Made by a program: the position numbers and the translations under genes. From a virus, in the IMG/VR virus record IMGVR_UViG_3300050821_007009, positions 1 through 49,313 of that record: a stretch of DNA of 49,313 nucleotides, one strand, 5' to 3'. Below, piece by piece: positions 6,564 to 44,714 of the stretch (position 1 is the stretch's first letter; each line of letters begins with the position of its first letter). Under the pieces are notes generated by a model, which worked only from the letters and a program-made list of their open reading frames with translations, was not told the DNA's origin and did no database searches.

Positions 6564-8252
6564 ATGGCCGTCACTAATGATTTTGTGCCTTTTGGAACCG
6601 GCGCGGGTGCGAATGTTATCTCCCCGTCGACATGGGCTACACTGCCTGCGCGGTTTACCGGAGTGCAGGCCGGGCAAGCGTCATCTGCACAAGCGAATAC
6701 CGCCTGGCGGCAAACTAGTTCTATTACCTCCGCTATCGCGCAATTCATTTCTGATACGCTAGCTCAATCGGTAGCTGACAATGGCAACATTGCAACCCTA
6801 GAAGCGCAATTTATAGCCGCAATTCAGACCTCTGTTGGTTCTCCATCACAGGCATCGCTTTGGCATTTCGGCCACGACAACGGCCCCGTGAACGTGCTAC
6901 AAGTCGCGGCCTCGCCGGTCATCACGGCGTATCAAGACGGCATGACCCTATCGACATTTCCGCAATTTAGCAACACGGTATCGAATCCAACGCTTAGCGC
7001 CAATGGACTGGCCGCTACAGTAATCGTCCATGCTGACGGAACAGCGCTTAATCCAGGCGATATATCCAGTAACACTGCGATAGTTTTTGAGTTTGACGCG
7101 ACGGCTGCGAAGTGGCGTATTATCAGTGCTTCGGCTGTCCCGCAAGCGGCGCTTGATCATTATGGTGCCGATGTGGGGACCGCGAATGCCATGCTGGTTT
7201 CGACGGTATTCCCAGGGATTGCCGCTGTTACTACCGGCATGCAATTTGTCATCAAGAAAGGCGCTTCGCCTAACACTGGCGCCGTCACATTAAATATTGT
7301 CGGCACGAATGCAGCAGTGACATGGGGAGATGGAACGCCGTTATCCGGAATTGGCCCGGAATGGCCGGCTGGCGCGGATGGCGAGGTCGTCTATGATGGC
7401 AATTATAGGCTGCTTAGTGTAATCAACCCAGCATCATTTGTGGTTCCTGGAACTCCAGTGCCATTGCTGGCGCCGAGAACATATTACGTCGACGCCAGTG
7501 CTGGTAATGACTCGAATAATGGATTGGCTGCTGGAGCGGGCCATGCCTTTGCGACCCCCGCTAAGGCGGTCGCAACAATTCTTTCGCTGAACATGAACGG
7601 ATTCGCCGTTACGGTGAACGTGGCGAATGGCACGTATGCCCCGTTTGCGTGCTCGCCACTCAATGGATCCGGATCGGTAGCATTTATTGGCAATACTACA
7701 ACGCCGGCAAGTGTCATCATCGCTGCCACAACCGGCGAGGCCATACTGGTACAAGGAAGCGGTTATTCATTTTCTGGATTTACTGTTACTAGCGCGGCTA
7801 ACGGATCTGCGCCGCATCTTGGTTGTGGGGTGCGATGCGATGGCGGAGTTACATGCACAATATCAAATATGGCGTTTGGTGCTTGTGCATTCGCCCATAT
7901 AGAGTGTGGATTTGGCGCATCAATTCAGATGCTTGGAGTCGCGTCCGGCAACTCATCGGCGTTTATTAATATTGTTGGATCGGCGCCGTCATTCATGTAC
8001 GTGGATTCCGGAGGAACTATTTCAACCGGACAGACCGCATTGACATTGACGGGTACGCCCACGTTTACGGCATTCGCATTCGCCATAAGCAACGGTTCTA
8101 TTTCGTTGCCATTTAATTCGATTACTGGCCTGGCAACCGGTTCACGATATTCCGTGAGCTTAAATGGAGTTATTAGCACCAACGGATCCGGGGCAACCTA
8201 TTATCCAGGTAGCACTTCCGGAACGGCAACGACAGGGGGGCAATATCTCTAA
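6564..8252 (+). CDS. Tail fibre / tailspike with parallel beta-helix
   Basis: A 562-residue fibre. Residues 1-30 (TNDFVPFGTGAGANVISPSTW) are a typical baseplate-attachment start. Residues about 100-270 carry a domain common in phage fibres (ADGTALNPGDI, FEFDATAAKWRIIS, AVTLNIVGTNAAVTWGDG). From about residue 307 YYVDASAGNDSNNG opens a right-handed parallel beta-helix that continues to the C-terminus, the fold of receptor-binding tailspikes that often degrade polysaccharide. Catalytic residues cannot be assigned by eye. The coupled downstream genes are probably fibre accessories. Confidence 0.82.
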   Translation: MAVTNDFVPFGTGAGANVISPSTWATLPARFTGVQAGQASSAQANTAWRQTSSITSAIAQFISDTLAQSVADNGNIATLEAQFIAAIQTSVGSPSQASLWHFGHDNGPVNVLQVAASPVITAYQDGMTLSTFPQFSNTVSNPTLSANGLAATVIVHADGTALNPGDISSNTAIVFEFDATAAKWRIISASAVPQAALDHYGADVGTANAMLVSTVFPGIAAVTTGMQFVIKKGASPNTGAVTLNIVGTNAAVTWGDGTPLSGIGPEWPAGADGEVVYDGNYRLLSVINPASFVVPGTPVPLLAPRTYYVDASAGNDSNNGLAAGAGHAFATPAKAVATILSLNMNGFAVTVNVANGTYAPFACSPLNGSGSVAFIGNTTTPASVIIAATTGEAILVQGSGYSFSGFTVTSAANGSAPHLGCGVRCDGGVTCTISNMAFGACAFAHIECGFGASIQMLGVASGNSSAFINIVGSAPSFMYVDSGGTISTGQTALTLTGTPTFTAFAFAISNGSISLPFNSITGLATGSRYSVSLNGVISTNGSGATYYPGSTSGTATTGGQYL

Positions 8253-8437
8253 TGTTCCCATTTGACTGGTATTGGATGGTTGGCGGTGACGGATCGCAGG
8301 TCTACTCAAGCAAGAGACAGGCATATTTTCCCATTAGCGATATGGCGTATTTGCATTGGAAAACCACATTTGGAAATCCAAGCTATATTGCAACGGAAGC
8401 AGAGATGCTGGAAATATTAGCGATGTTTGGAATATGA
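8252..8437 (+). CDS. Small fibre-associated protein
   Basis: A 61-residue product beginning FPFDWYWMVGGDGSQVYSS, overlapping the fibre stop by one base (TAATG). Small Trp/Tyr-rich proteins of this form commonly follow tail fibre genes in proteobacterial phages. No fold assigned; chaperone or minor structural role is inferred from position only. Confidence 0.65.
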   Translation: MFPFDWYWMVGGDGSQVYSSKRQAYFPISDMAYLHWKTTFGNPSYIATEAEMLEILAMFGI

Positions 8438-8438
8438 T

Positions 8439-8789
8439 GTGGATCTCTCGTTCCAGAATAACCAGACATTTGCCCTTTCCTTGGATGTGAATGCGTGGAA
8501 GCCGATCTATCCTCTATCGGCGTGTGTGTTCCATATGCAGGTAAGAACGGCCCCGACGGTTGTTCCAATTATCTATGCATGGTCGTCTAATCCGACCGAC
8601 CTGTGGGGCAACGGGACTATCACCTACACTGATTCGACCGGCCTGTTATTTTTCGGGGCGCCATATAGCGATATGATTAGATTGATTCCAGGCAGCTATT
8701 TTTGGGATCTTGAATTAATTTTTGGAACAAACATCAAAGTGTTGACTGGCGGTGCATTCGTAATAACCGCCGGGATTACATTGCAATGA
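8439..8789 (+). CDS. Hypothetical virion-associated protein
   Basis: The likely start is GTG at 8439, placed directly behind the upstream stop; an in-frame TTG at 8427 would overlap that gene by 11 nt. The protein (about 116 residues) begins DLSFQNNQTFALSLDV and has alternating strands (CVFHMQVRTAP, GSYFWDLELIF, GGAFVITAGITL), a pattern seen in small beta-sandwich proteins of phage fibre clusters. Function unknown. Confidence 0.6.
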   Translation: MDLSFQNNQTFALSLDVNAWKPIYPLSACVFHMQVRTAPTVVPIIYAWSSNPTDLWGNGTITYTDSTGLLFFGAPYSDMIRLIPGSYFWDLELIFGTNIKVLTGGAFVITAGITLQ

Positions 8790-8802
8790 CAGGGCTGTCC
8801 TG

Positions 8803-9213
8803 ATGGTCGATACGGTCGTCGTAACCAACCCTGATAGCGCGATCGCAGTACTGCAGCCCACATTGTCTGATGCTATCGCTGCGGCGCAATTGTACGCCGG
8901 CCAGGCTGGGGCAGCGCAAGCGATTGTTATGGCTGCGCAAGCTAGCATTAATGCTGCCGAAATTGCTGCTTTGTCCGCAGCGGCATCTGCTCAGGCTGCA
9001 GCGTCGGCAGCTGCCGCGGCTGCTGGCGGCGGCGGAATATCCACGACTGTCGCCGCACTTTATTTATTGCCTGGATTGACGGAAGGCCTGCCTGCCTGGG
9101 CGACAAATGGCCGGAAGGTCAGCGAAGGCCCGATGAATGGGACGGGAATCGCCGTGAGATACTCATTGGGATTTTGGCGATGCGTATCAACCGATGCTCC
9201 CGTACAAACATGA
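8803..9213 (+). CDS. Ala-rich coiled-coil fibre accessory protein
   Basis: 136 residues: a segment from about 20 to 75 consisting almost entirely of alanine with isolated Gln/Ser, predicted as a helix bundle or coiled coil, then Gly4 and a C-terminal domain. That domain has the phage fibre signature ATNGRKVSEGPMNGTGIAV followed by GFWRCVSTDAPVQT, seen at the ends of many fibre or whisker proteins. The stop overlaps the next start (ATGA). Confidence 0.65.
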   Translation: MVDTVVVTNPDSAIAVLQPTLSDAIAAAQLYAGQAGAAQAIVMAAQASINAAEIAALSAAASAQAAASAAAAAAGGGGISTTVAALYLLPGLTEGLPAWATNGRKVSEGPMNGTGIAVRYSLGFWRCVSTDAPVQT

Positions 9214-10541
9214 GATATTATCTGATAGCGCTCGCGCTGTTTTTTATCACGCCAGCATATGCACAAGTGACTCCGCAGCCGGCCGGGCAGTTCCTGGCAA
9301 CGCCATGCAGCGGAGCTGGGTTTCTAGCCCCAAGGACTCTATGCTCGACTGACCTTACATCGATTGGAACTACCGGAACTGGGAGCATCGTTCTTAGCGC
9401 TTCTCCGACGGTGACAGGACAACTGCGAATCACTGGTGGCGGCACCAACGCGAATATATACGCTTCGGATACAGGTACGGCCACGTCGTTCACGACAGCG
9501 CCATATAACTTCTTTGCAACGGATCCGTATGGAAGCTTCGCATCGGCGTCGACTCATTTCGAATTTGTTGTGCAGGCCACAAAGGCAGCCCCGACTTCTA
9601 ATACAACCGGATCCCGCATCGCTGGAACGTTCCAGCAATTGGGCTCCGGAGGAACGGGAACGGACTATTTTACGGGAGGCTACGAACTGGTATCGCCGAC
9701 GGCAGGATCATTTGCCAACGCTGGCAACTTCACAGGTAATAGTGCATACTGCAATATACCAACTGGTATGAACCCGACAAGTTGTGTCGGGCAAGAAACC
9801 AATGTCAGCTCACTATCTAATGTAACCAATATCAGGGAGGGAGATAGAATCGTTGACATTGGCAGCACAGGCAGCCCAGGAGCCGGGATTGATGCTGCTT
9901 TTGGCGGCTCGAATGCGGGCGGCATCGGATTCCAGCATTTTCTATTCGCCGGAGATGCGGGCAACACGGGGTTCCCGGTACCAGCTGGCGGTGATCTATT
10001 CAACAGTGTCACTTCTTCTGTCGTTCTAAACACATACATGAATTTTGCCAATATTTCTGGTGTTCCAGCATTAGAAGGTGTTCTCCTGCCTGCCGGAATT
10101 GCCGGAATCGGATGGGGTACGCATACTACATGCTGCGGCGGTGGTGAAATTATTAGCGGTACGTCAACGAGTGGCGGCAAACTTGTTTTCGCAAACGGGC
10201 TAACGGTATTTCAGACTAATGCTGCCGCAAATGTCCTTAATATCGGGGTTAATTCATTCTATGGCTCGACGACTGCCCCGGTAGTAACCGCATGTGGAAC
10301 AACGCCGGCGACGTCGTCAGGCGCGAGTAATTCAAATGGAACAATAACCGAAGGAACGACATCGACCGGATGCACTCTTACTTTTTCCGGCGCGGCGCAC
10401 TCGAATAATTGGGACTGTGTGATTTCCTACCAGACGGCGGTTCCGGCGACGTTGACCTATTCGACAACGACAACCGCCCTCGTAATTGCCCACGGATCAG
10501 TAAGCAGTCCAAAATTTACATATCATTGCATGGGGGGCTAA
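9210..10541 (+). CDS. Exported beta-rich protein in fibre operon
   Basis: ATG at 9210 overlaps the preceding stop, and translation from it gives a clear Sec signal peptide (MRYYLIALALFFITPAYA, cleavage before QVTPQP); a longer in-frame start at 9174 would bury this signal. The mature 425 residues are Gly/Ser/Thr-rich strands with a C-terminal piece (NNWDCVISYQTAVPATLTYS) like the fold that ends many phage fibre-like proteins. A signal peptide on a protein encoded inside a tail fibre operon is unexpected, because tails assemble in the cytoplasm. No enzymatic motif recognised. Confidence 0.7.
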   Translation: MRYYLIALALFFITPAYAQVTPQPAGQFLATPCSGAGFLAPRTLCSTDLTSIGTTGTGSIVLSASPTVTGQLRITGGGTNANIYASDTGTATSFTTAPYNFFATDPYGSFASASTHFEFVVQATKAAPTSNTTGSRIAGTFQQLGSGGTGTDYFTGGYELVSPTAGSFANAGNFTGNSAYCNIPTGMNPTSCVGQETNVSSLSNVTNIREGDRIVDIGSTGSPGAGIDAAFGGSNAGGIGFQHFLFAGDAGNTGFPVPAGGDLFNSVTSSVVLNTYMNFANISGVPALEGVLLPAGIAGIGWGTHTTCCGGGEIISGTSTSGGKLVFANGLTVFQTNAAANVLNIGVNSFYGSTTAPVVTACGTTPATSSGASNSNGTITEGTTSTGCTLTFSGAAHSNNWDCVISYQTAVPATLTYSTTTTALVIAHGSVSSPKFTYHCMGG

Positions 10542-10547
10542 GAATCG

Positions 10548-11501
10548 ATGGCTGGCACGCTCCCTCCAGTCCGAGGCTTGTCTTTTGGACAGAAGGTTGT
10601 CGTGGCTCCTATTATCAATACCAACTTAAGTCTTTTATCCCCGCTAACTCTTGATACAAATTCTTTTGTTGTTGGCTCTCCGCAAGGCACTGTTATCGGA
10701 ACCGTGCAGGGCACGACGCCGGGCTCAATGCTGCTTCTGACCAATTCTGATTCGGGAGCAGTTCAGCTGGTTTCTGGAGTAATCCAGGTAGGCCCAAATC
10801 CGGCCAGTAGCGTCAGCGCATTTACCATCGAACTTACAGAAATCCTCGCTGGCGCGCCTCCCAACGCAACAACGATGTTAATCGGCGCCATTTCCTCTCC
10901 AGTCCCCCTCATCATCACACTTCCGGTAATCTCTGGAAGCCCGCAAGTTGGACAAACTCTCGCCGCATCAACTGGAACATGGGCAAATTCCCCATTGAGT
11001 TTCGCGTATCAATGGAATGATACCGGAACGCCGATCGCTGGCGCGATATCATCTTCATATTCAATTCTGTCAGCTGACATCAGCGATCTCATCACAGTCT
11101 CGGTAACAGCATTCAATGGCGTCGGGGCGAGCATTCCGGCGACGAGTGCGGCAACGAGCGCGATCATTGATATTATCCCGACGATTCGTGTGCCGCCTTC
11201 AATCCCCGGTACGCCGAATGTCGGCTTTCCAATTACCGCGATTGACGCCATCTGGAATAATAGCGTTACCAGCCTTGTATATCAATGGAAATCGGCCGGG
11301 GTCAACGCGACTGGGGCGGGCGCCAATACACTCTCCTACACTCCAGTTACGGGCGATCTCGGGAACACCCTGACAATCACCGTGACGGCGACGAACTCTG
11401 GCGGGACTGGCACGCCATCAACCAGCGCGGCATCTGCGGTGGTCGGCAATGCCGGCACTGCTGCGAACTCCACCACATATATCATTCTTATGGCTGCTTA
11501 A
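10548..11501 (+). CDS. Ig-like repeat protein of the fibre operon
   Basis: 317 residues. The first 115 form a beta-rich head (GQKVVVAPIINTN, GSMLLLTNSDSG, FTIELTEILAG). Two bacterial Ig-like repeats follow at about 120-205 and 206-300, each with the signature VGQTL...GTW...YQW...TY...GDLGNTLTITVTATN. No signal peptide, unlike the related 13462-19020 protein. Ig domains in phage virions usually bind cell-surface glycans, so this may be the virion counterpart of the exported Ig protein. Confidence 0.7.
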   Translation: MAGTLPPVRGLSFGQKVVVAPIINTNLSLLSPLTLDTNSFVVGSPQGTVIGTVQGTTPGSMLLLTNSDSGAVQLVSGVIQVGPNPASSVSAFTIELTEILAGAPPNATTMLIGAISSPVPLIITLPVISGSPQVGQTLAASTGTWANSPLSFAYQWNDTGTPIAGAISSSYSILSADISDLITVSVTAFNGVGASIPATSAATSAIIDIIPTIRVPPSIPGTPNVGFPITAIDAIWNNSVTSLVYQWKSAGVNATGAGANTLSYTPVTGDLGNTLTITVTATNSGGTGTPSTSAASAVVGNAGTAANSTTYIILMAA

Positions 11502-11513
11502 AAAGGTCATCCA

Positions 11514-12587
11514 ATGGCTCTTACTATCTCTAGTCAAGGCGTCGCGACAGGATCATTCGGTAGCTTCACAGCGGTTATGGTGAAGACCGCTGGCGGAAAT
11601 TATTTTGGTGCAACCGCTGTTATAAAGAATGACGAAAGCGGGATTTTCGATTTCACGACTCTTATGCCGAGTAGTGGTGGCACTGTTGGACTCTCCGGAA
11701 CCCTGCCCGCATTCACAGCGACGCCTACCGTTAATATTGGCACGATCAGTACAATCGCGACGGCGGCGAATCAGGCCAGCCAACTTACCCAGCAAACAGC
11801 GGTCGCAACCGGGGTTGGCACCCCGGCGGATACTGCGTGGGTGTCAGGGTCCGGCACTCAGATTGCGATTCTGAAAAATCTTTCCACGACTCTCATGCCG
11901 AGCAGTGGCGGGTCTGTCGCGCTCGCCGGGACGCTACCAGCATTTGCGGCCATTCCAACCGTCAACCTTGGAACCATCGGAGGAGGAGCCACGGCGGTAA
12001 ATCAGGCCAGCCAGCTCACGCAAGAAACAATTAGTGCAGCGGCTCTTGGTACCCCGGCTGATACAGCGTGGGTGTCCGGGTCCGGGTCGGTCGTTGCCGT
12101 TTTGAAAAAGATAGCTACGGCTGGCGCAGGCGCAGTTACGATTGCTGACGGCTCCGATGCAACGCTTGGGAGTCAGGCTGACGCTGCATGGTCTGGATCA
12201 GGCAGCGGATCCGAGATGGCTGTTCTTAAGGCGATCTACGCAGAACTTGCAGCTATGCCGGACTCAATCCCGGTGGCTGCAATACGCTCAACCGCGCTCG
12301 AGGCAAGCCATGTATTTAAAGCCAGTGCGGGTAGTCTCATAGACACCTACTGCCTAGCAACGGTTTCCGGATTTTATATGCTTTTTGATGCAACATCGGT
12401 GCCTGCCGATGGTGTTGTGACACCATTAGGAGTCATCCCGGTCGGGGCTTATGAGGCCAGTTCATTCGATCTTCAATCAAATTGCCCGCTGACCTTTACG
12501 ACCGGGTTAATTGGCGTGTTTTCGACGACTGGCCCATTCATCAAAAGTGCGTCTGCAATGGCGTTTATGTCAGCGAGGATCCAGTAA
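11514..12587 (+). CDS. Repeat-containing fibre-operon protein
   Basis: 357 residues containing two copies of a 77-codon repeat whose units begin at about 11655 and 11886 (231 bp apart). The units share LMPSSGG...L(S/A)GTLPAF, NQASQLTQ(Q/E)T and GTPADTAWVSGSG; a partial third copy follows (ATLGSQADAAWSGSGSGS). The C-terminal 100 residues form a distinct domain (VAAIRSTALEASHVFKASAG). No export signal; RBS-like AAAGG lies 8-12 nt before the ATG. Likely a structural spacer or fibre subunit, by context. Confidence 0.7.
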   Translation: MALTISSQGVATGSFGSFTAVMVKTAGGNYFGATAVIKNDESGIFDFTTLMPSSGGTVGLSGTLPAFTATPTVNIGTISTIATAANQASQLTQQTAVATGVGTPADTAWVSGSGTQIAILKNLSTTLMPSSGGSVALAGTLPAFAAIPTVNLGTIGGGATAVNQASQLTQETISAAALGTPADTAWVSGSGSVVAVLKKIATAGAGAVTIADGSDATLGSQADAAWSGSGSGSEMAVLKAIYAELAAMPDSIPVAAIRSTALEASHVFKASAGSLIDTYCLATVSGFYMLFDATSVPADGVVTPLGVIPVGAYEASSFDLQSNCPLTFTTGLIGVFSTTGPFIKSASAMAFMSARIQ

Positions 12588-13465
12588 TGATTAATAGATT
12601 TCTCGCCGCTCTTGCCATTATTATGTTCCCTATTAGTGCGATGGCTGGTGCTATTGGGCAGGCTGGTGAGCCGGCGGCTCAGGCTGATACGATTGGGTCT
12701 GTTGTGGCATTAAATGCCCTCAATGTAGCGGCTTCCGTGGCTATGAATGGGCAAGGCGGATCTGGAATGCTACTGGCCGCCGGAACTCTGGTAGGTACGC
12801 TAACCCCAGAACTTTCTTTTGATGGCGGGTCAACTTATCCGAAAACGACATTCTTTTATGATCCGTCGACCTTAGCGACTTCCTCAACGATCGTATTTGG
12901 GGCCGCCAACCCGGCCACAGCGCTTTCAATTATCGTCTCAGGCGGCGCGACAAATGTTCGCGTCCGCATCTCGACGTTTGTATCCGGCACTGCAAACGCC
13001 TCTCTTCGGGCGACGGCCGCATCGGCCCCGCAAAATGCTCTGGGGATTGTGGGGACGTCCCCAGGAACGGCGGCTCTTGTCGGGAGTACTGTGCAAGTGC
13101 AACCGGCGTCTCTTGATCCATGCGCGACGCAGACGCATGTCTATACGCCAATCAATATTCCAACGAGCGCAACGGCAATCAAGGTTCCTGGCACAGCTGG
13201 AAAGAAAACTTACGTCTGTGCGCTCTTCGCGATATCGTCAGCGGCGACTACATTCTTCGTTGCCGAGGGAACCGGCTTGAACTGCGGGACGAATAACCAC
13301 GGCGTGATAGGCGGTTCGCAGATGTTGGGTGCCAACGCTCCAATTAGCGTTGGCGGTGGAAACAGTGCCATCGCCGCAACCGATACGGTAGGTGAGGACC
13401 TCTGTTTTGCCGAATCCACGGGAACAGTAGTTATTGGTGGCGTAGCGGTGACTGCCCAGCAATGA
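12587..13465 (+). CDS. Exported protein in fibre operon
   Basis: The ATG at 12587 overlaps the stop of the repeat protein (TAATG) and gives a Sec signal peptide (MINRFLAALAIIMFPISAMA, then GAIGQAGEP). The mature part, about 270 residues, is a beta-rich protein with four cysteines in the C-terminal 100 residues (LDPCATQTH, TYVCALFAI, GLNCGTNNH, EDLCFAES), pointing to an oxidising compartment. No domain recognised. Its 3' end overlaps the giant Ig protein gene by 4 nt (ATGA), so the two are probably made together. Confidence 0.7.
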   Translation: MINRFLAALAIIMFPISAMAGAIGQAGEPAAQADTIGSVVALNALNVAASVAMNGQGGSGMLLAAGTLVGTLTPELSFDGGSTYPKTTFFYDPSTLATSSTIVFGAANPATALSIIVSGGATNVRVRISTFVSGTANASLRATAASAPQNALGIVGTSPGTAALVGSTVQVQPASLDPCATQTHVYTPINIPTSATAIKVPGTAGKKTYVCALFAISSAATTFFVAEGTGLNCGTNNHGVIGGSQMLGANAPISVGGGNSAIAATDTVGEDLCFAESTGTVVIGGVAVTAQQ

Positions 13466-16400
13466 TGAAGCGCGCAGTTGTACTAATCGCCGCTCTGATT
13501 CTCTCGTCTGCGGCAGGTGCGAATCTTTTCCTTACGATGCGCGCGATTCCGGTCGGAGCAGGCGGCGCTCCTGTAAACGTGGTGCTTCCAGCCATTTCCG
13601 GACCAGCGCAGGTAGGCCAGACTTTGAGCGCGACCACTGGAACATGGTCTAACGCACCAACTAGTTATACCTATCAATGGAGAGGCAATGGAACCCCGAT
13701 AGGGGGCGCTGTCGCGTCAACCTATATCCCGGTAGCAGGAGACATAGGAAACGTCATCACCGTTGCGGTTACGGCGTCAAACTCCGATGGGCCTGGTAGC
13801 GCGGCTATTAGTGCGGCAACGGTCGCGGTGGTCGCGGCTGGCGCCGTGCCGGTGAACACCGGTCTACCAGTGATCTCAGGAGCCGCGCAAGTCGGCGTGG
13901 TCCTAAGCACAACGAATGGAACGTGGACCAATACCCCGACGAGCTATGCCTATCAATGGAAGAGTGCTGGCGTCAATGTCGGCACATCGGTATCGACCTA
14001 TACGCCGGTAGTAGGGGATATAGGAAACGTCATCACAGTTGCGGTTACGGCCACCAACGGGACCGGCGCAAGTGCCCCAGCAACAAGTCTTCCCACGGTT
14101 GCCGTGGTGGCTGCTGGCGCGGTTCCTGTGAATACCGCTATTCCCGTCATCTCGGGTGCGGCGCAAGTTGGGCAGACACTCACCACCACCAATGGAACGT
14201 GGAGCAACACTCCCACAAGCTATGCCTATCAATGGAAGTCGGCAGGAAGCAACGTCGGCACATCGATTGCTACCTACGTCCCTGTGGTTGGTGACATCGG
14301 AAATACAATAACCTGTTCAGTGACCGCAACGAATGGCACGGGCTCAAGCGCTCCTGCGATGAGCGCCGCGACTGTCGCGGTGGTGGCTGCGCCGGTCCCT
14401 GTAAACACCATGGTTCCTGGAATCTCCGGATCCCCGGCCGTCGGCCAGACACTCACGGCATCTAATGGAACATGGACGAATAGCCCGACGAGATTCACCT
14501 ACCAGTGGAATGGGACAAGCGCAGCGCCATCGACGGTCTTTTCGGCCGCCCTTGTAGCGAACAACACAGGCAACCAAGGATATCAATTCAGGGAGGTCAT
14601 ACCGGCATCAAGCCTTACAGCGAGCGGTATAGTCTCCGGTTCCATACGTGTTGGGTTCGGCTTCATGACCGGCACAACAGTAGGAACGATGGTCGCCTAT
14701 ATTGGGGAGGCGGCGGCATCCGGGAATCCATCGGACTTCGACGGAACACAGGTTCAATTGACGTTTGGCGGATCGACGACTCTTGCCGGCCTAAATGGCG
14801 CTAGTACGGTCTTTTCAGATTATGTGCCATTCACTCTTGATGCATCGAAAAATCTAGTCATCTCGATGTTTTATGGTGGAACCACAGTTAACGTTGGAGA
14901 AGCCACCGCCGCGCCGATCACCGTCTATTATAGCAACACTGTTGTTAATCCTGCTGCCACCGTAGCAGCTGGTTTATTGACGCAGGCAGGTTTCGCCGAT
15001 ACGGCCGGGGAAGTCGATTTTAAAGCCGGAACAACGGGGGCGATTGCAGGCGCCACAGCTAGCACCTACATCCCTGTTACCGCCAATGTCGGCGACAATC
15101 TAACAGTTTCCGTCGTTGCCTATAATAGTTCCGGTGGGGCAAGTTCTCCGGCAACGAGCGCGGCCACAGCAGCCGTCACTGCGGCTCTCCCTGTGCCTGG
15201 GAACACGGCAGTTCCCATCATCATCGGGACGGCGCAGGTTGGCCAGACGCTAAGTACCGATAATGGGTCTTGGACAAATAGTCCGACAAGCTTCACTTGG
15301 AAGTGGAACCGCGCGGGGACGCCAATAGCCGGGGCAACCGCTTCCACATATGTTCCGGTGACCGCAGATGTCGGTAGCCAGTTGACGATCACTGTTATCG
15401 CAGCGAACAGCAGCGGATCGAGCTTGCCGGCGACGAGCCTGCCGACCAGTGCTGTTGTCGCGGCGGCGTCTGGGCCACCGGTGAACACCGCGATTCCGTT
15501 GGTTTCCGGATCTACCACCGTCGGCCAGACGCTCACAGGAACTAACGGTAATTGGACGAATTGCCCATGCTCTTTCACTTATACATGGAACAGCGCGGCG
15601 GCCACTCCTGATATTACCGCCTTTAATGCAGCTGGGAATATCGTCAATGGCGGAATTTCGTATGCAGCCGAGAATGCGCTGCAATCATGGTCGCTTACCG
15701 AGTCAGATACGCAGACCCTAGCGTTCCAGGTTCGCCCAGGCGATGTATGGTCCGGTGATGTCGGGAGGGCAGGCCCGCCAAATCGTTCTGAAATCGACGG
15801 CGCCGCAAATATGTTCCCCCCAGGAACAGAGGTTAATATTAGCTACAATTTCGATATGACTTCGGCAACCGTGCGAACGGATGCAAACGGCATAACTATT
15901 GGACAGACCCATAATGATGACGGATCGCTAGGCGGCGCAACTTCATCGCCATTTGAAATGGATCTGCAGCCGCTAGATAATATGAGTATCTATGTTGCTA
16001 ATTTAGCATCCAGCCCAGCTCCCACAAATAGCACATTCTACGGTAATTCGGTTGTCAACGGCAAGAGCCTGAATTATTACCAGGTCTACGCCGATCCAAG
16101 CCCCATCGTGCGAAATCATAATTACACGATGAAGATTCAAATGAAGTATACGGTCGGCGGCGACAACTCCGGTTTTTTGAATGTTTGGAGAGATGGAGTT
16201 CAAATTGTAAACTCGACCGGGCAATTAGGATTCGGATACAATATCTATTGGAAAGAGGGAATTTACGGAACGGTTACGAATGCAACGCAGATAGCGCAAT
16301 ACCAGAATCTTAAAGTGGCGCGACGGCCACTAGTGCTAGGGACTGCGTTGACATATATTCCCATAACGGCGGACGCTGGAAATGCTGTCACGCTGACCGT

Positions 16401-19020
16401 CACTGCCACCAATTCATCTGGATCTGCATCTGCGACAAGCATGGCTACGGCGGCCGTAGTGACCGGAAGCGGCAGCCCACCGGCAAACACAATCATTCCC
16501 AAGGTAATTGGCACGGCGCAGGTCGGGCAGGTACTCAGCACCGATAATGGATCATGGACCAACAGCCCAACCAGCTACGCTTGGCAGTGGAACAGCAGCG
16601 GCACAGGGGCGATAAAAGGATTTTCCATCTCTGGCGGTAAAATTATTGGTCCGAATGGACAGCCATGGATAGGACGAGGAATAAAGATTTCTGGTGATTC
16701 TCTTCCATCGACTCTCACGGCTCTTCCGGCCGTTACGCCGCTCTCTACTCTCTTTCCCGGCATTAACGTGGTTATGCTGTATTTTACAGATAATCAATTT
16801 GCTGGATTGCAGCCTTATATAAACGCACTGACGGCGGCAGGTATTGTCGTTGTTCTTCAAAATGACGTAGAATCGCAATTTGGCCTGGCACAGCCAATCG
16901 CACCATTGACGGATGGGAACTTAACCACATCCGTTAATTTTCTCGCGAACTATGCCACGTTTTATAAGAACAATCCATATGTCTGGTTCATCTCAGAGAA
17001 TGAGCCATGGTTATATGCACCAAACGGCACCACCTATAATCTAACTCCTATAACACAGATGCAAGCGGCCTATTACAATGGGGTTCGCGCAACCGGCAAT
17101 AATAGCATATTTGTAATAAGCACGGCAGGCAATAACTTAAATGTTATAATGACCTCGTTTGAAACTACGACGTTTGGCGCAATGTCAAATGTCATATGGG
17201 ACACTCACTTCTACAACTGCACAGTGAATTACGATACGACAGTGGCGGGGAATTTGGCTGGCATTGCCTCACTGTTTAACATATATGGTGTGGTAAATAG
17301 CACTAATGGCGCGATTCCTGTAACGCTCTTCGAGTATGGGGATTGGTGCGGGGGCGCGGGTTTAGACGCTGGCTGGACGGAAGCGGTTCAGGCAGTCAAT
17401 ACGGCACCAAACATACAAGGCTCAGCGGCTTATACTTGGTACAATGGCAATGCCTTTGACAGCCTTTTGAATGGCCAAGCGGCTAACTCCGGGTTTACCG
17501 CGTTCGGATCTCTTGTCGCCTCGTACATTACTGCAGGCCCATCGCATCCCACACCGCCAACTAAATCAGGCCCGATCACGGGCGCCACAGCCTCTACATA
17601 TCCCCCCGTCGTCGGCGATGTCGGAAGCATGCTAACGGTCTCGGTTGTTGCAAGCAATGGCAGCGGATCGAGCCCGGCCGCGACGAGCGCCGCGACCAGC
17701 GCGGTCATTCCAGCCGGAACCAGTGGCTCAGCGGCGAGGACTGCCAATCTATTGGGTATTTTGGGGGTATCAGCCCACGCGAACGATTATGCGGCATTAA
17801 ATGGGGCAACGGCGGCCAGCATCGTATCGGATGCGCAATATCTCGGAATAACGAAGTGGCGTGATGGGCTCGGTACAAATGCGATTTATAATGCTCTCTA
17901 TAACGTAGGAGTCACGTTCATTGGGCTGCCGTGGCCGGTCTCTGACTCGGTCATAGCAGACAGCATTACCTTTGCCGACCAGGTCGCGGCGATAGGGCCA
18001 GGTGCATTGTTCGCACTTGAAGGACCAAATGAGCCGGCCGGATTTGGATTTACCTACGATGGATTTGGGTTGTCTGGAGGCGGCTCGTCATGGAACGGAG
18101 TCGCCGCATGGACGAGTGCTTGGTACACGGCAGTTCACGCGGATGCTAACCTATCCGGGGTGCCGGTCTGGTCGGCGTCACTAATAGGTGCGGAAAACGG
18201 CAATTACGGCATGCAGTACATGACCGTCCCGGCCGGCCCGCCGGCTGGCGTGCTGTCGGCCGCCGGAACGAAATTCGCCGACGACTATAATATGCACCTT
18301 TATCCGATGTTCCAGGGACATGCTCAAACTATCGACCCGAGCGGCGATGCCATTGTCGGTCAGCTGACTGGAGATCTTGTCACTACGTATGCCAACAGCT
18401 ATGCCGGGCTTACGCTCACGGCGGCAAAAGCACTCACTAGGGGAATAACCGAATTTGGCTATCAGGCCACAGGAGGGACACCTAGTGGTACCACTACTGA
18501 CATTCCTACCGCAGCGAAGGATATATTAAACGGGGTGATGAATGCGTGGAATGAGGGATATGCCGCTATCTGCATATACACATTCTATGAAGATGCAGCT
18601 GATGGCGGTCCTGGTTTCGGACTCCTAAATAGTCCAGGCAATCCGAACGCACGCGGCACCTATATGCATAATTTCACGACGCCTTTGAAAGACGCCGGCG
18701 CAAATGCAAAGACGTTTACGACTGGCTCGCTGTCTTATACGCTTACCGGCCTCCCCTCGACAGGCCAGGCTCTTTTGTTCGAAAAGTCCAACGGCCACTA
18801 TGAGATTATTATTTGGAATAATGTTTCTAATTGGAACTTCTCCGCGGGCACGCCAATTGCAGTTGCCCCTACGAACGTAACGCTGACTCTAGGCACGGCA
18901 GCAACCACTCTTAATGTTTACGACCCCACCGTTCAGGCCACGCCGTGTATAATCGGCTCAGGCACAACGATAACCGCGGGCCTGGCGGACTATCCGATGA
19001 TCCTAGAAGTGATCCCATGA
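13462..19020 (+). CDS. Giant exported Ig-repeat protein with nested lyase-like and glycoside hydrolase-like domains
   Basis: 1852 residues with signal peptide (about 1-25), then seven Ig-like repeats. Repeats 1-3 (about 34-312) and 5 (578-668) are uninterrupted. Repeat 4 is split after YQWNG by about 170 residues (352-521, unassigned beta domain). Repeat 6 is split after YTWNS by about 245 residues (712-956) resembling a heparin-lyase-I-like/concanavalin fold (FQVRPGD, NRSEID at 774-779). Repeat 7 is split after WQWNS by about 320 residues (1048-1368) resembling a clan-A hydrolase, with acid/base candidate E1181 in ENEPW and nucleophile candidate E1291 in LFEYGDW. A second clan-A-like domain occupies 1425-1750 (GPNEP, E1524; TEFGY, E1664), with a beta C-terminal domain after it. 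Likely degrades host or biofilm polysaccharide; substrate unknown. Confidence 0.8.
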   Translation: MMKRAVVLIAALILSSAAGANLFLTMRAIPVGAGGAPVNVVLPAISGPAQVGQTLSATTGTWSNAPTSYTYQWRGNGTPIGGAVASTYIPVAGDIGNVITVAVTASNSDGPGSAAISAATVAVVAAGAVPVNTGLPVISGAAQVGVVLSTTNGTWTNTPTSYAYQWKSAGVNVGTSVSTYTPVVGDIGNVITVAVTATNGTGASAPATSLPTVAVVAAGAVPVNTAIPVISGAAQVGQTLTTTNGTWSNTPTSYAYQWKSAGSNVGTSIATYVPVVGDIGNTITCSVTATNGTGSSAPAMSAATVAVVAAPVPVNTMVPGISGSPAVGQTLTASNGTWTNSPTRFTYQWNGTSAAPSTVFSAALVANNTGNQGYQFREVIPASSLTASGIVSGSIRVGFGFMTGTTVGTMVAYIGEAAASGNPSDFDGTQVQLTFGGSTTLAGLNGASTVFSDYVPFTLDASKNLVISMFYGGTTVNVGEATAAPITVYYSNTVVNPAATVAAGLLTQAGFADTAGEVDFKAGTTGAIAGATASTYIPVTANVGDNLTVSVVAYNSSGGASSPATSAATAAVTAALPVPGNTAVPIIIGTAQVGQTLSTDNGSWTNSPTSFTWKWNRAGTPIAGATASTYVPVTADVGSQLTITVIAANSSGSSLPATSLPTSAVVAAASGPPVNTAIPLVSGSTTVGQTLTGTNGNWTNCPCSFTYTWNSAAATPDITAFNAAGNIVNGGISYAAENALQSWSLTESDTQTLAFQVRPGDVWSGDVGRAGPPNRSEIDGAANMFPPGTEVNISYNFDMTSATVRTDANGITIGQTHNDDGSLGGATSSPFEMDLQPLDNMSIYVANLASSPAPTNSTFYGNSVVNGKSLNYYQVYADPSPIVRNHNYTMKIQMKYTVGGDNSGFLNVWRDGVQIVNSTGQLGFGYNIYWKEGIYGTVTNATQIAQYQNLKVARRPLVLGTALTYIPITADAGNAVTLTVTATNSSGSASATSMATAAVVTGSGSPPANTIIPKVIGTAQVGQVLSTDNGSWTNSPTSYAWQWNSSGTGAIKGFSISGGKIIGPNGQPWIGRGIKISGDSLPSTLTALPAVTPLSTLFPGINVVMLYFTDNQFAGLQPYINALTAAGIVVVLQNDVESQFGLAQPIAPLTDGNLTTSVNFLANYATFYKNNPYVWFISENEPWLYAPNGTTYNLTPITQMQAAYYNGVRATGNNSIFVISTAGNNLNVIMTSFETTTFGAMSNVIWDTHFYNCTVNYDTTVAGNLAGIASLFNIYGVVNSTNGAIPVTLFEYGDWCGGAGLDAGWTEAVQAVNTAPNIQGSAAYTWYNGNAFDSLLNGQAANSGFTAFGSLVASYITAGPSHPTPPTKSGPITGATASTYPPVVGDVGSMLTVSVVASNGSGSSPAATSAATSAVIPAGTSGSAARTANLLGILGVSAHANDYAALNGATAASIVSDAQYLGITKWRDGLGTNAIYNALYNVGVTFIGLPWPVSDSVIADSITFADQVAAIGPGALFALEGPNEPAGFGFTYDGFGLSGGGSSWNGVAAWTSAWYTAVHADANLSGVPVWSASLIGAENGNYGMQYMTVPAGPPAGVLSAAGTKFADDYNMHLYPMFQGHAQTIDPSGDAIVGQLTGDLVTTYANSYAGLTLTAAKALTRGITEFGYQATGGTPSGTTTDIPTAAKDILNGVMNAWNEGYAAICIYTFYEDAADGGPGFGLLNSPGNPNARGTYMHNFTTPLKDAGANAKTFTTGSLSYTLTGLPSTGQALLFEKSNGHYEIIIWNNVSNWNFSAGTPIAVAPTNVTLTLGTAATTLNVYDPTVQATPCIIGSGTTITAGLADYPMILEVIP

Positions 19021-19940
19021 GAATATTTTTCGCCTTGATAGCAGCTCTGTTATTAGGTTCAATAATTTATGCTCGCGCATGCGCGGTGCTAGCTTTTAAT
19101 CCAGCGAACCCAGCAGCGAGCGGCTTCGCCAATATCTTCCAAGATCTGTTTCCTGGAGCTGCACTCAATAATGCAAACTGGTGCCCGAATTACCCCAACG
19201 CAACTAGCTGCCTGGCGCTTGGCGGCAGCACGAACGCCAATCAGAACGCATCTTGCGATCCGGCGCATACTACTGTTTCTGGTGGTGCGGCGCACATGCT
19301 TGTCACCAATACGGCTAGTAATGGGTATCCTAATGACGGCGCGTGTATGAATACAGATGGCGATCCGGAAACGCGTGCCGGGAATCCTTTGCATTCATTC
19401 CAGCCTCCAGCGGGGGCCACTGGAGCGATTTGGATCGAGGTCCAGATGACCCTTCCTGACAACGGATGCGGTGCCAGCACTTGCAGTGTAACTGGAGGAG
19501 TCGCTAATGAACCGTCGATATTCATGGGTGGCGTCACGCCTGGCGCTGCAATTTGCCAGACCGGATGGCCCACATGTGGCGAGATAGATATTGCGGAGTT
19601 CTATGGCAACAACAACAACCAGGACAACCATGGCGGAAATTGCACATCCTATCATCATGATCCGACCGATTACAATTTGTCCCTTTTGACGGTGGGGGCG
19701 GCGACGGCAAGAACGACTTGCACAAATGGAAATTTCACAGGAACACATTACTATGGTGTTTTATGGATGAATGCCAGCATAACGTTCTATTTTGATAGGA
19801 ATCCGATATTCACCACCACAAATGTGGTGGCATCTAGCCCCATGTATTTGATAATTTTCAATATCACTGACACGCGAGTGGTAGATGTTACGCCATCTAC
19901 AATAGACATCCATAGCGTCAACGTGTGGAGTCATACATAA
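19017..19940 (+). CDS. Exported GH16-like glycoside hydrolase
   Basis: Start at the ATG overlapping the giant gene's stop (ATGA), giving a signal peptide (MRIFFALIAALLLGSIIYARACA). The mature protein carries the GH16 catalytic signature E-I-D-I-A-E at residues 189-194, where E189 is the expected nucleophile, D191 the helper and E194 the acid/base. A typical HYYGVLWMNASITFYFD strand follows about 60 residues later. Many cysteines (for example WCPNYPNATSC, CGASTC, GWPTCGEID) suggest disulphides. GH16 enzymes cleave beta-1,3/1,4-glucans or galactans by retention. Its coupling to the giant Ig protein suggests both attack the same polymer. Confidence 0.82.
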   Translation: MRIFFALIAALLLGSIIYARACAVLAFNPANPAASGFANIFQDLFPGAALNNANWCPNYPNATSCLALGGSTNANQNASCDPAHTTVSGGAAHMLVTNTASNGYPNDGACMNTDGDPETRAGNPLHSFQPPAGATGAIWIEVQMTLPDNGCGASTCSVTGGVANEPSIFMGGVTPGAAICQTGWPTCGEIDIAEFYGNNNNQDNHGGNCTSYHHDPTDYNLSLLTVGAATARTTCTNGNFTGTHYYGVLWMNASITFYFDRNPIFTTTNVVASSPMYLIIFNITDTRVVDVTPSTIDIHSVNVWSHT

Positions 19941-19945
19941 GGCAA

Positions 19946-20086
19946 ATGGCAATGAACCCAAATGCGTGGCAGATCGGGAAATGGATTGGTGATAATTGGT
20001 TTTATATGCCAGCACTATGTATTTCTGTCTGGTACACAGCTGAGTTTATTTGGATCACCAGTTCATTCTGGCGGTCGCTGGTATGA
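19946..20086 (+). CDS. Small single-span membrane protein, candidate holin or pinholin
   Basis: A 46-residue reading frame with an AAGG ribosome-binding site 5 nt upstream and a 4-nt ATGA overlap with the endolysin start at 20083. The product (MAMNPNAWQIGKWIGDNW start) has one hydrophobic Trp-rich span (FYMPALCISVWYTAEFIWI). Location and coupling to the endolysin make a lysis role plausible; size is small even for a holin. Confidence 0.6.
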   Translation: MAMNPNAWQIGKWIGDNWFYMPALCISVWYTAEFIWITSSFWRSLV

Positions 20087-21162
20087 CGGTTCGCGTCACG
20101 CCGCCAATGCTCGCGGCTTTCGACCATTTTATGTCCATTGGATTCATAGAGAATGGCGCGGGCGCGGCGGTCGGGAACTTTTGCCAGGAAAGTGGCGAGA
20201 TGCTTATCGCCACTATGTTTCGTGAGCACCCCGATTATTCAGGAGGCGTACCAGACGCTTTAAAATCCGGCGGGATCGCGGAGTGGCTCGGCGATAGAAA
20301 AACTGCATATATCGCCTTTGCCAATCGTGCCGAAGTGCGGCTCGAACTTGCCAAAGGGTCGCTCTTGAACGATCTGGGGACACAGTGCGATTTCGTTGTT
20401 TACGAATTGCAGACCACTCCTGAATATGCTAATTTATATCAGCAATTGACGAGTGGAACAAGGTCGATTGTAAACCTTACCGCAAATTTTATGGCGGTCT
20501 ATGAGCGGCCAAAGCTCGGACCGACGGCAAATCTCGATAACCGCATAGCACATGCCGAGGCGGTGGTTGCAAGAGCAAGAGAGCTAAAGGCACAGCCGTC
20601 GCCACAGCCAGCCCCGCCCGTGCATATTCCTTCGCTTCCCGGCTCAAAGGTACTGCCCCCGATCCTTCCCGCTCCAGCGCCTTCCCCTGGCGTTCCCCAA
20701 ATATCAGCAACATCTGCTGGCCGCCGCGCCGCCGAGCAAGCCTATATCGCCGAGATGCTTAATCATCTCTTGGCGGAACGCGCTGCGCTCGAGGAAGAAA
20801 TCGCAGATTTCCAGGACATGGCGGCAAAGCTAGGAAAGCGGAATCCAACTCAGGAACTCCCGAAGCTGACGGCTATTCCGCCGCTGGTTCAGCCACAAAG
20901 GAAAACACATATGAACGTCGTTACCTCAAATCCATGGACGAGCATAGCGGGCTTTGGTTCGCTCATCAGCGCAGGCCTAGGGGTTTATCACGCGGTCTCA
21001 ATAGGTTCAGTTCCAGACCAAACTGAAGTCAGTCTGCTTTTCTCGTCAGCCATATCCGGCATTGGGCTGTTATTCGCAAAAGACTGGAACCGTACAGGCG
21101 GCACAGTATCAGCAGTTACCGGTGCGGTTGGAACCCCCGTCTCGCTCGTCGATAAACAATAA
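20083..21162 (+). CDS. Endolysin of the phage tail-lysozyme family with C-terminal hydrophobic domain
   Basis: 359 residues from the ATG that overlaps the small membrane gene; an in-frame TTG at 20050 is a weaker alternative. Residues 20-110 follow the tail-lysozyme pattern: AAVGNFCQESG with catalytic candidate E36, GGIAEWLGDRKTAYIAFA, and a LNDLGTQCDFVVYEL helix. A Pro-rich linker (about 165-205, PSPQPAPPVHIP) leads to a charged helical segment and then a C-terminal hydrophobic domain. That last domain appears to have its own internal start (next entry). Cleaves peptidoglycan glycan strands at lysis, by family. Confidence 0.75.
   Translation: MTVRVTPPMLAAFDHFMSIGFIENGAGAAVGNFCQESGEMLIATMFREHPDYSGGVPDALKSGGIAEWLGDRKTAYIAFANRAEVRLELAKGSLLNDLGTQCDFVVYELQTTPEYANLYQQLTSGTRSIVNLTANFMAVYERPKLGPTANLDNRIAHAEAVVARARELKAQPSPQPAPPVHIPSLPGSKVLPPILPAPAPSPGVPQISATSAGRRAAEQAYIAEMLNHLLAERAALEEEIADFQDMAAKLGKRNPTQELPKLTAIPPLVQPQRKTHMNVVTSNPWTSIAGFGSLISAGLGVYHAVSIGSVPDQTEVSLLFSSAISGIGLLFAKDWNRTGGTVSAVTGAVGTPVSLVDKQ
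20911..21162 (+). CDS. Internal-start, holin-like product nested in the endolysin gene
   Basis: The in-frame ATG at 20911 (endolysin codon 277) is preceded by AAAGGA with 8 nt spacing, a better ribosome-binding site than that of the full-length gene. It would give an 83-residue protein with two hydrophobic segments (WTSIAGFGSLISAGLGVYHA and SLLFSSAISGIGLLFA), a class II holin-like topology. Expression is inferred from the site and the domain boundary after a Pro/Gln-rich stretch; no experimental support. Confidence 0.5.
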   Translation: MNVVTSNPWTSIAGFGSLISAGLGVYHAVSIGSVPDQTEVSLLFSSAISGIGLLFAKDWNRTGGTVSAVTGAVGTPVSLVDKQ

Positions 21163-22928: not shown

Positions 22929-23183
22929 ATGTCCTGTGAATATTGCGGAGATAAAAAGCCGCATAATGGAGTGTGCTGGAAAATAAAGTCCATCGAATAT
23001 CACGCGAACGGCAAGGTCAAGCGCGTCGAATTTTTCACTGCTAGCGACTACATGGTGCCCGCCCCGATAATTCCTATCTATCCAGTTCCGATTTATCCAC
23101 GGCCGCCGAACCCATGGCCATATTCCACAGTATGGATTAGCTCGTCGACCAGTTCTGCTTGCAGTGACGTTATGGTCACATGA
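22929..23183 (+). CDS. Small zinc-finger-like phage protein
   Basis: 84 residues opening with MSCEYCGDKKPHNGVCWKIK (CxxC plus a third Cys, short knuckle), then the segment IEYHANGKVKRVEF, a combination frequently seen in small alphaproteobacterial phage proteins. A Pro/Tyr-rich middle (IIPIYPVPIYPRPPNPWPY) follows. AAGGAGAAAGTGA before the ATG is a good ribosome-binding site. Role unknown. Confidence 0.65.
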   Translation: MSCEYCGDKKPHNGVCWKIKSIEYHANGKVKRVEFFTASDYMVPAPIIPIYPVPIYPRPPNPWPYSTVWISSSTSSACSDVMVT

Positions 23184-40427: not shown

Positions 40428-40976
40428 ATGCCCGACCTCCCTATTGACTATCCCCGTCTTACCCGCAGCGGCGCCGGCAAGGTCAGCTCTCCCGACGTTA
40501 AGCACTATCGTACTGGCTCGGCGGAACTGGATAGGCTCGCGGCAGAACATGATCGGATATGGAAGGTATTTCTAGAATCACCTAATAAAGTTATCTCACC
40601 ACCGCTGTCGTCAGCGCCAATGCCGGCCATATCCGCAGTCTTAATTATACCCGAACTTACGCCTGAACAAAAAGCGCCATTCGCGCGAGCGCATAAGCTA
40701 GCTGAAATACAAAAAGTTGTTGCGCAACATTTTGATATTAGCATTCTCGGTATTATTTCTAAATCCAGACTTAAGAAATTTGTGCATGCGCGCCAGGTTG
40801 CCATGTACATATGCAGGACAATGACTGGATTACCATATCCGAGAATCGGTGAATGGTTTGGGGGCAGAGATCATACAACCGTAATGCACGGCGTGCGTAA
40901 AATAGAAGCGCTGACGAAACAAGATTATGTGCTTGCTGACGAAATCGCGGCGCTGCGCGCGGGGTTGGAGCAATGA
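40428..40976 (+). CDS. DnaA domain IV-like protein (DnaA box-binding)
   Basis: 182 residues with no AAA+ domain. Residues about 92-165 reproduce the DNA-binding domain of DnaA: VVAQHFDISILGIISKSRLK, ARQVAMYICRTMTGLPYPRI, and the signature GRDHTTVMHGVRKIE at 146-160. In DnaA these residues read the DnaA box. A free-standing domain could recruit the host replisome to the phage origin or compete with host DnaA. ATGA-coupled to the methyltransferase gene. Confidence 0.8.
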   Translation: MPDLPIDYPRLTRSGAGKVSSPDVKHYRTGSAELDRLAAEHDRIWKVFLESPNKVISPPLSSAPMPAISAVLIIPELTPEQKAPFARAHKLAEIQKVVAQHFDISILGIISKSRLKKFVHARQVAMYICRTMTGLPYPRIGEWFGGRDHTTVMHGVRKIEALTKQDYVLADEIAALRAGLEQ

Positions 40977-43547: not shown

Positions 43548-43770
43548 AATCCTCAAAAAGCTGAATGGGTTTGATTTGCCTGATGCAACATTACAGGCAG
43601 ATCATATCATAATGCAAGCACTGGATGGAGTTAGGATTGACAGACATAATCGTGAGCGTGTGCGGGAATATTTGATATTGCATCTGATTTCTGCCGAGGA
43701 GCGCGGGCGACGCGAGGGAATAACCAAGGCGCTGGTCGAGGCTAAGCGGCAGAATCTGGGTTGTGATTGA
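43531..43770 (+). CDS. Helical hypothetical protein (79 aa)
   Basis: AGGAG lies 8-12 nt before the ATG. Sequence SEWDEILKKLNGFDLPDATL, then NRERVREYLILHLISAEERG, ending ALVEAKRQNLGCD; all-helical, acidic. Its stop overlaps the second methyltransferase ATG (TGATG). Not recognised. Confidence 0.58.
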   Translation: MSEWDEILKKLNGFDLPDATLQADHIIMQALDGVRIDRHNRERVREYLILHLISAEERGRREGITKALVEAKRQNLGCD

Positions 43771-44714
43771 TGAGCGTGCGAATTATCAAAGGCGATGTGC
43801 GCGAGAAGCTGGCTAAATTGCCGGCGGATTACTTCGACTGCATTGTGACGAGCCCTCCGTATTACCAACTTAGAAATTACAATTGCGAGGGCCAGATCGG
43901 CCTCGAACCCACGCTAGACGCATATCTTGAAACAATGGTTGCGGTATGCCGCGAGCTGCGGCGCGTGCTCAAGCCTAGTGGCGTGTGCTTTATTAACATC
44001 GGGGATTCTTATAATAGCAGTTCGCAGTTCAATAGTAGTGCAAAAAACATTTATGGAGAAAACAAAGATGTAAAATGGGCAGGCCATAGAGCGGCTGTGC
44101 CCGGCCTCAAGCCAAAAGACCTGATGCTCGTCCCCGAACGCCTTGGCATCGCTCTTCAAATGGACGGCTGGTGGGTTCGGTCGCATATCATTTGGGCGAA
44201 GAAAAATTGCATGCCTGAGAGCGTTATGGATCGCCCGACGAGTGCGCATGAGACGATTTGGATGCTAACCAAGAGCGCGCGATATTATTGGGATGCGGAG
44301 GCGGTGAAGGAACCCGCGGACAGTTTTGGGCGGCAACATACATCGGCCATTCAATCGCCTAAGACTCGCGCGCTTCAAGAAGACGGGGCACACGGAACAG
44401 GTGGGGACCTCAGTATCAACTATGAACGAGAAACTCGCAATCTCCGCAATGTCTGGCACATGGCCTCGCACCCATATCCAGACGCACATTTTGCAACATT
44501 CCCGCCGGAGCTAGCCGAGCGGTGCATTAAGGCCGGATCGCCGCGCGGCGGCCAGATCCTCGATCCATTTGCTGGCGCAGGCACAACTGGTCTTGTCGCT
44601 GATCGCCTTGGCCGCGATTGCACGCTTATCGATCTCAATACCGAATATGCCGAGATGGCATTGAATCGCATTAGGAATGATTGCCCGATGTTCGCGGAGG
44701 TTGCAGCAGAATGA
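43770..44714 (+). CDS. DNA methyltransferase, SPPY type (probable N4-cytosine)
   Basis: 314 residues. Motif IV is TSPPYYQLRNY near residue 30, the form usual for N4-cytosine enzymes; RRVLKPSGVCFINIGDSYNS is the next conserved strand, and near the C-terminus GGQILDPFAGAGTTGLVADR supplies the AdoMet-binding motif I. A mid-section ESVMDRPTSAHETIWMLTKS is typical of phage stand-alone enzymes. No restriction enzyme gene is adjacent, so it likely protects phage DNA or alters gene control. Confidence 0.85.
   Translation: MSVRIIKGDVREKLAKLPADYFDCIVTSPPYYQLRNYNCEGQIGLEPTLDAYLETMVAVCRELRRVLKPSGVCFINIGDSYNSSSQFNSSAKNIYGENKDVKWAGHRAAVPGLKPKDLMLVPERLGIALQMDGWWVRSHIIWAKKNCMPESVMDRPTSAHETIWMLTKSARYYWDAEAVKEPADSFGRQHTSAIQSPKTRALQEDGAHGTGGDLSINYERETRNLRNVWHMASHPYPDAHFATFPPELAERCIKAGSPRGGQILDPFAGAGTTGLVADRLGRDCTLIDLNTEYAEMALNRIRNDCPMFAEVAAE

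Follow-up and report, generated by a model that had tools for sequence, protein, structure and literature searches.

How can a phage protein built on small immunoglobulin-like (Ig) repeats carry several unrelated carbohydrate-active domains? This question is raised by an open reading frame (ORF) at positions 13462-19020 of IMGVR_UViG_3300050821_007009, a phage record of 49,313 bases which we analyzed over its whole length and refer to as the window. The ORF lies on the plus strand, as do all its features described below. It encodes an 1852-residue protein with a hydrophobic N-terminus, seven Ig repeats, three of which are split, and a C-terminal glycoside hydrolase (GH)-like domain. In our view the protein is probably a multi-enzyme array for glycan degradation, encoded by the phage and built on a stalk of Ig repeats in which one hairpin tolerates the insertion of whole domains.

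Three of seven Ig repeats are split at the same position

A first-pass annotation, made from the sequence alone, had proposed that three of the seven Ig repeats are broken at one and the same position. We therefore searched the protein with separate profiles for the N-terminal and C-terminal halves of the Ig repeat (N-half and C-half), which were derived from 162 complete repeats found in the window and in 79 viral loci. The halves alternate strictly in the order N C N C N C N[179]C N C N[250]C N[329]C, where the numbers are gaps in residues, which bears the proposal out. The break is at an identical position in repeats 4, 6 and 7, between the Trp strand (YQWN, YTWN and WQWN) and the GATAST strand. 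Insert 1 (14512-15048, 179 residues) separates the N-half (14395-14511, E 4e-18) and C-half (15049-15171, E 1e-7) of repeat 4. Insert 2 (15592-16341, 250 residues) lies between the halves of repeat 6 (15475-15591, E 5e-14 and 16342-16452, E 1e-7), and insert 3 (16594-17580, 329 residues) between those of repeat 7 (16477-16593, E 9e-15 and 17581-17700, E 1e-11). The four intact repeats of the seven, 1-3 (13567-14385) and 5 (15193-15456), carry the usual short loop at the split site and thus, as had been suggested, reveal what the uninterrupted loop looks like. The strong matches of the protein in PHROGs fall on the Ig repeats. A search for repeats at the edges of the inserts recovered the Ig repeats and a single weak 25-nucleotide family, with no pair resembling a target site.

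The inserts are complete domains elsewhere

The inserts had been described as three catalytic-looking domains. Searched alone, inserts 2 and 3 match enzyme families in Pfam and the description holds for them, while insert 1 has no Pfam match and resembles a carbohydrate-binding-type beta-sandwich.

Insert 2, previously likened to heparin lyase I, matches PF14099 with an E-value of 2.8e-11 (44.2 bits, curated cut-off 29.9), and we assign it as a polysaccharide lyase of this family with predicted activity, since active-site-like residues are in place. Its motifs are RSE, QxH and YWKxGxY, of which R, S, E, Q, K and Y are invariant in all seven aligned rows. The His of QxH is not invariant, being absent in the family member from L187. 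The RSE, Q, K and Y columns are presumably catalytic, as in related lyases. The best sequence match among solved structures, glucuronan lyase A, reaches an E-value of only 0.065. Relatives of insert 2 occur in five of 397 genomes from the order of an Afipia metagenome-assembled genome (MAG), in proteins without nesting in this Ig, and none was found in the viral contigs searched.

Insert 3 matches PF00150 (E 1.8e-8, 34.7 bits, curated cut-off 23.5). Its model has eight alternating strands in order, as in a (beta/alpha)8 barrel, at an overall predicted local distance difference test score (pLDDT) of 54.5. Comparison with solved structures gives Z-scores of 19-21 in the 50 matches listed, mostly GH5-type by title, and these span model residues 40-366, which correspond to the insert. 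The earlier call of a clan-A glycoside hydrolase is thus supported at the level of family and fold. E1181 (in NEP) and E1291 (in EYG) are at the positions given in that annotation and align with L080, another phage locus, at its NEP and EYG, as well as with L081 and L082. We therefore assign insert 3 as a GH5 glycosidase that has both catalytic glutamates and is predicted to be active. It had no match in the named phages searched or in the same 397 genomes, and little can be concluded from the negative in these genomes. Among the viral relatives found, the nearest is the GH5 domain of L080, which is 31% identical over residues 9-313 of 325 and stands directly behind a signal-like peptide. The L080 protein (7203-11786) shares a related GH5 with the 1852-residue protein but has its GH5, SGNH esterase and GH26 domains in line, with no Ig nesting seen. 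Its ORF adjoins another long repetitive gene.

The model of insert 1 matches polyvinyl alcohol esterase entries (9kr1, Z 12.8, 125 residues, 2.5 A) and the carbohydrate-binding module (CBM)-like domains of acetyl xylan esterases (CspAcXE, 7toj, Z 11.9; FjoAcXE, Z 9.8). Because of these fold matches, we classify the modelled insert as a CBM-like beta-sandwich that is predicted not to be catalytic. Relatives occur in 18 viral loci, whose proteins differ in layout and contain the module once or twice, and no match was found in the named phages searched. FjoAcXE-type enzymes are reported to have a CBM-like domain of the same fold, which precedes the SGNH esterase in line (PMC9105624), whereas insert 1 has a nested position and is not accompanied by any esterase that we could find.

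All three inserts are thus complete domains elsewhere: the GH5 in L080, the lyase in bacterial genomes and insert 1 in viral loci. A fourth module follows repeat 7 and is not nested. This C-terminal domain (17704-19017) has no Pfam match and no relatives in the viral contigs searched. Relatives were found in 15 of the 397 genomes, and the glutamates of its conserved NE and TExG motifs (E1524 and E1664) are kept in all six that were fetched. We regard it as a putative glycosidase.

The same hairpin is filled in phage and bacterial proteins

We measured the gap in 526 distinct N-C half-pairs from 308 loci. It is at most 20 residues long in 500 pairs, 21-60 in 17 and more than 60 in nine. Eight of these nine are truly filled, three in the 1852-residue phage protein and five in bacteria. 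With eight sites truly filled, in phage and bacteria, insertion at this hairpin is recurrent within the Ig family. The earlier suggestion that the fixed loop could be a general acquisition site is strengthened by the five bacterial cases. The ninth long gap, in L158, was rejected by reading, as were those in L157 (two), L137 and L045/L204, since all of them represent missed intermediate repeats. In L120, reading revealed a longer insertion inside a half. A different arrangement is seen in Mesorhizobium phage Cp1R7A-A1, where the ten Ig repeats of a 1571-residue protein (L336, 3204-7919) are all intact and two of them are separated by about 270 residues of non-Ig sequence, an in-line and not a nested layout.

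The first bacterial case is a Solirubrobacteraceae MAG (L098) in which NHL repeats interrupt an Ig repeat at the same hairpin, with a gap of 315 residues (Pfam NHL, E 2.3e-36). The reading that no relative is split and that this gap is a missed repeat is ruled out by the NHL propeller within the repeat. Two paralogous repeats with an empty loop lie within about 5 kb of this gene (L392). Further searches, with the nested sequences as queries, covered 232 genomes of the same order and 50 genomes of the family of a second genome, G422. The latter encodes a 1637-residue protein (L393) in which two filled repeats adjoin two intact ones (Pfam NHL). One filled repeat each was found in G423 (L417; Pfam NHL) and G424 (L418). 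Since nested queries were used after L098, these cases prove recurrence, not frequency. In all five fillings the NHL beta-propeller is flanked by two cysteines, one following the Trp strand (WLRC, WQRC) and the other preceding the next strand. The five sites come from a single order, Solirubrobacterales, judging by the title of one MAG. Between the two filled repeats of the 1637-residue protein, residues 440-918 look by eye like a right-handed beta-helix.

Altogether there were 660 N-half matches, of which 595 were paired. The 65 unpaired ones comprise 22 with another N-half at most 75 residues on, 12 weak matches, 20 that by eye have a diverged C-half directly behind them, and 11 that are cut by the end and may conceal splits.

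At least one insertion seems to be a separate event

It had further been claimed that the loop was filled three times independently. We inferred a tree from 40 repeats, the seven of the 1852-residue protein and 33 relatives taken best-scoring first, an alignment of few columns. Split repeat 7 is the sister of intact repeat 5 (support 99/94), and the three split repeats are not grouped, which is why at least one insertion event seems to be separate. The N-halves of repeats 5 and 7 are also the closest such pair involving a split repeat (76% identity at the protein and 73% at the DNA level). Three independent events are unproven, as a tree that holds the three split repeats together in one clade is not rejected (p-AU, from the approximately unbiased test, 0.166). 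The guanine-plus-cytosine (GC) content of inserts 1, 2 and 3 is 53.1, 49.0 and 47.7%, that of the Ig parts 55.0-65.3%. This fits separate origins, with the caveat that GC content is confounded by amino-acid make-up. Outside the window, the closest repeat to split repeat 4 is found in L001 (73% identity), in a protein that resembles a neighbouring protein of the window (10548-11501).

These data also bear on a history in which a repeat filled by a single ancient insertion was later duplicated, the contents then being swapped by homologous recombination via the Ig halves. The failure to reject the clade of split repeats is in line with it, and so is the similarity between the N-halves of split repeats 4 and 6 (66% protein, 71% DNA). 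The pairing of split 7 with intact 5 argues against it, as does the fact that the three inserts have unrelated folds. We regard this history, which is compatible with our preferred explanation, as a serious possibility, though one we lean against.

The halves of repeat 4 may build one Ig domain around the insert

Whether the flanking halves form a single Ig domain, as the first-pass annotation had it, was addressed by structure prediction. The model of repeat 4 with insert 1 comprises 266 residues and was built from 15 alignment rows (mean pLDDT 69.5, predicted template modelling score 0.55). Two solved Ig/FN3-type domains align along nearly all of it: 8a1f_A (Z 7.0) to residues 1-266, with 93 residues aligned within a continuous stretch of 100, and 8iyk_F (Z 6.9) to residues 1-264, with 89 residues aligned within a continuous stretch of 99. 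Since the insert makes up most of the 266 residues, these alignments must draw on both Ig halves. With moderate confidence, the model thus suggests that the halves of repeat 4 build one Ig domain around insert 1. For repeat 7 the claim found no such backing: its model recovers the GH5 domain and leaves the Ig halves unfolded. A Foldseek search of viral models yielded nothing above low TM-scores.

Several observations weigh against a stalk whose hairpins hold whole domains. The mean pLDDT of the repeat 4 model is the modest value given above, both of its Ig matches have Z-scores in a range that the comparison tool calls common, and four of its 15 alignment rows are intact repeats that pair the halves. 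In the repeat 7 model, built from seven rows of which none pairs the halves, the pLDDT of the halves is about 30. The 1852-residue protein has no whole-length relative in the viral contigs searched. Finally, most members of the Ig family are unfilled, including all 22 half-pairs from named phage regions (found in 10 of 11 regions), where every gap is 7-12 residues.

The unfolded halves of repeat 7 would also be expected if the halves were two half-size remnants of recombination between tandem repeats, with the inserts lying between broken Ig pieces. Moreover, loop-like residues are kept on both flanks of inserts 1 and 3, as an exchange between repeats could leave. Yet in each of the three repeats a single N-half is matched by a single, complementary C-half in the same frame, the halves of repeat 4 match a single continuous Ig/FN3 domain, and the five bacterial sites keep a cysteine pair on either side of the propeller. 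We therefore judge remnants of this kind to be unlikely.

Gene neighbourhood

The window encodes a contractile-tail-type module with a baseplate hub, Baseplate_J and a tail fibre. Among named phages, Burkholderia phage Magia has the nearest relative of its baseplate wedge protein (47.5%). The 1852-residue ORF sits downstream of the baseplate and tail-fibre genes, a position that would suit an ordinary tail fibre or virion decoration with enzymes in line, its split arising by chimeric assembly, but a single open frame runs through all six Ig/insert junctions and fillings of this hairpin also occur in bacterial assemblies of independent origin, which makes this explanation highly improbable.

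The ORF begins with a signal-peptide-like N-terminus, MMKRAVVLIAALILSSAAGA (13462-13521), judged by eye from the translation. The next gene (18945-19940) encodes a GH16 protein, also with a signal-like N-terminus. The neighbouring protein at 10548-11501 (plus strand, 317 residues) has two intact repeats of the same Ig family. Signal-like starts are also seen at the window genes at 9174, 12482 and 21497, and a lipobox-like LSAC at the gene at 23164, both unusual in a tail region. A Phage_lysozyme2 protein (20050-21162) shares 47.5% with that of a related phage locus (L013), which has a 728-residue protein instead upstream of it. Two neighbouring genes are assigned to DNA methyltransferases by PHROGs (40973-43123 and 43767-44714).

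A probable glycan-degrading array on an Ig stalk

Insertion into a hairpin requires a cargo with neighbouring ends, as jelly-rolls, TIM barrels and propellers usually have. In the explanation we prefer, the hairpin between the YQW and GATAST strands of the Ig stalk would accept a whole domain whose two ends are close together. The CBM-like module, the polysaccharide lyase and the GH5 domain would each be tethered at both ends and project sideways from the stalk, and the putative glycosidase would terminate the chain. In the bacterial form, the two cysteines may close the neck beneath the NHL propeller. Export would proceed via the N-terminus, for which its hydrophobicity argues. Because a lyase, a GH5 domain and a putative glycosidase are combined in one chain and the next gene encodes a GH16 protein, the likely target, as predicted from sequence, is the breakdown of acidic and neutral host exopolysaccharide. 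The protein may thus loosen host exopolysaccharide during or after infection.

Split Ig domains as such have precedents. The RTX adhesins FrhA and MpIBP are reported to have split Ig-like domains that carry ligand-binding domains (PMC10865825). The Ig domain is discontinuous in sequence, as in the phage protein, and the cargo points off the stalk axis. Two tethers should keep the cargo pointing sideways from the stalk, in line with what has been proposed for these adhesins (PMC10865825). In FrhA the split follows a first strand of 12 residues, unlike in the phage repeats, which are split at a mid-domain hairpin. The adhesin cargo consists of binding domains, whereas two of the three inserts in the phage protein are enzymes and three repeats are filled. 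The phage protein is not itself recognizable as an RTX adhesin: no RTX-repeat or beta-roll Pfam match was found over its 1852 residues, and its C-terminus is glycosidase-like. Another phage protein that accepts an inserted CBM is the evolved distal tail protein (Dit) of lactococcal phages, where CBM insertions are reported to have an effect on exopolysaccharide-bearing hosts (PMC10688798). In that case the distal tail protein takes the place of the Ig repeat as the receiving domain, and the inserts are binding modules. No Dit family is among the PHROGs matches of the 1852-residue protein. A search of the open literature, in the parts accessible, returned split Ig domains that carry binding domains as well as evolved Dits with CBMs, and no enzyme or propeller in this hairpin. 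Split Ig domains holding binding modules are already known. In the phage and bacterial proteins described here, a single loop of a widespread Ig repeat accommodates four folds that are unrelated to one another and include two enzymes.

A broader reading, which we put forward tentatively and rate at slightly less than an even chance, is that this one hairpin is a natural socket in which phages and bacteria repeatedly mount unrelated whole domains sideways (CBM-like, lyase, TIM-barrel and beta-propeller), with a cysteine pair closing the bacterial form, and that the enzymes are exchanged while the scaffold stays. If this is true, a gap of more than 60 residues after YxW would serve as a simple rule for spotting cargo concealed in proteins with Ig repeats. 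Such a rule would catch cargo that whole-domain searches split or miss, and the hairpin would offer a ready scaffold for mounting enzymes.

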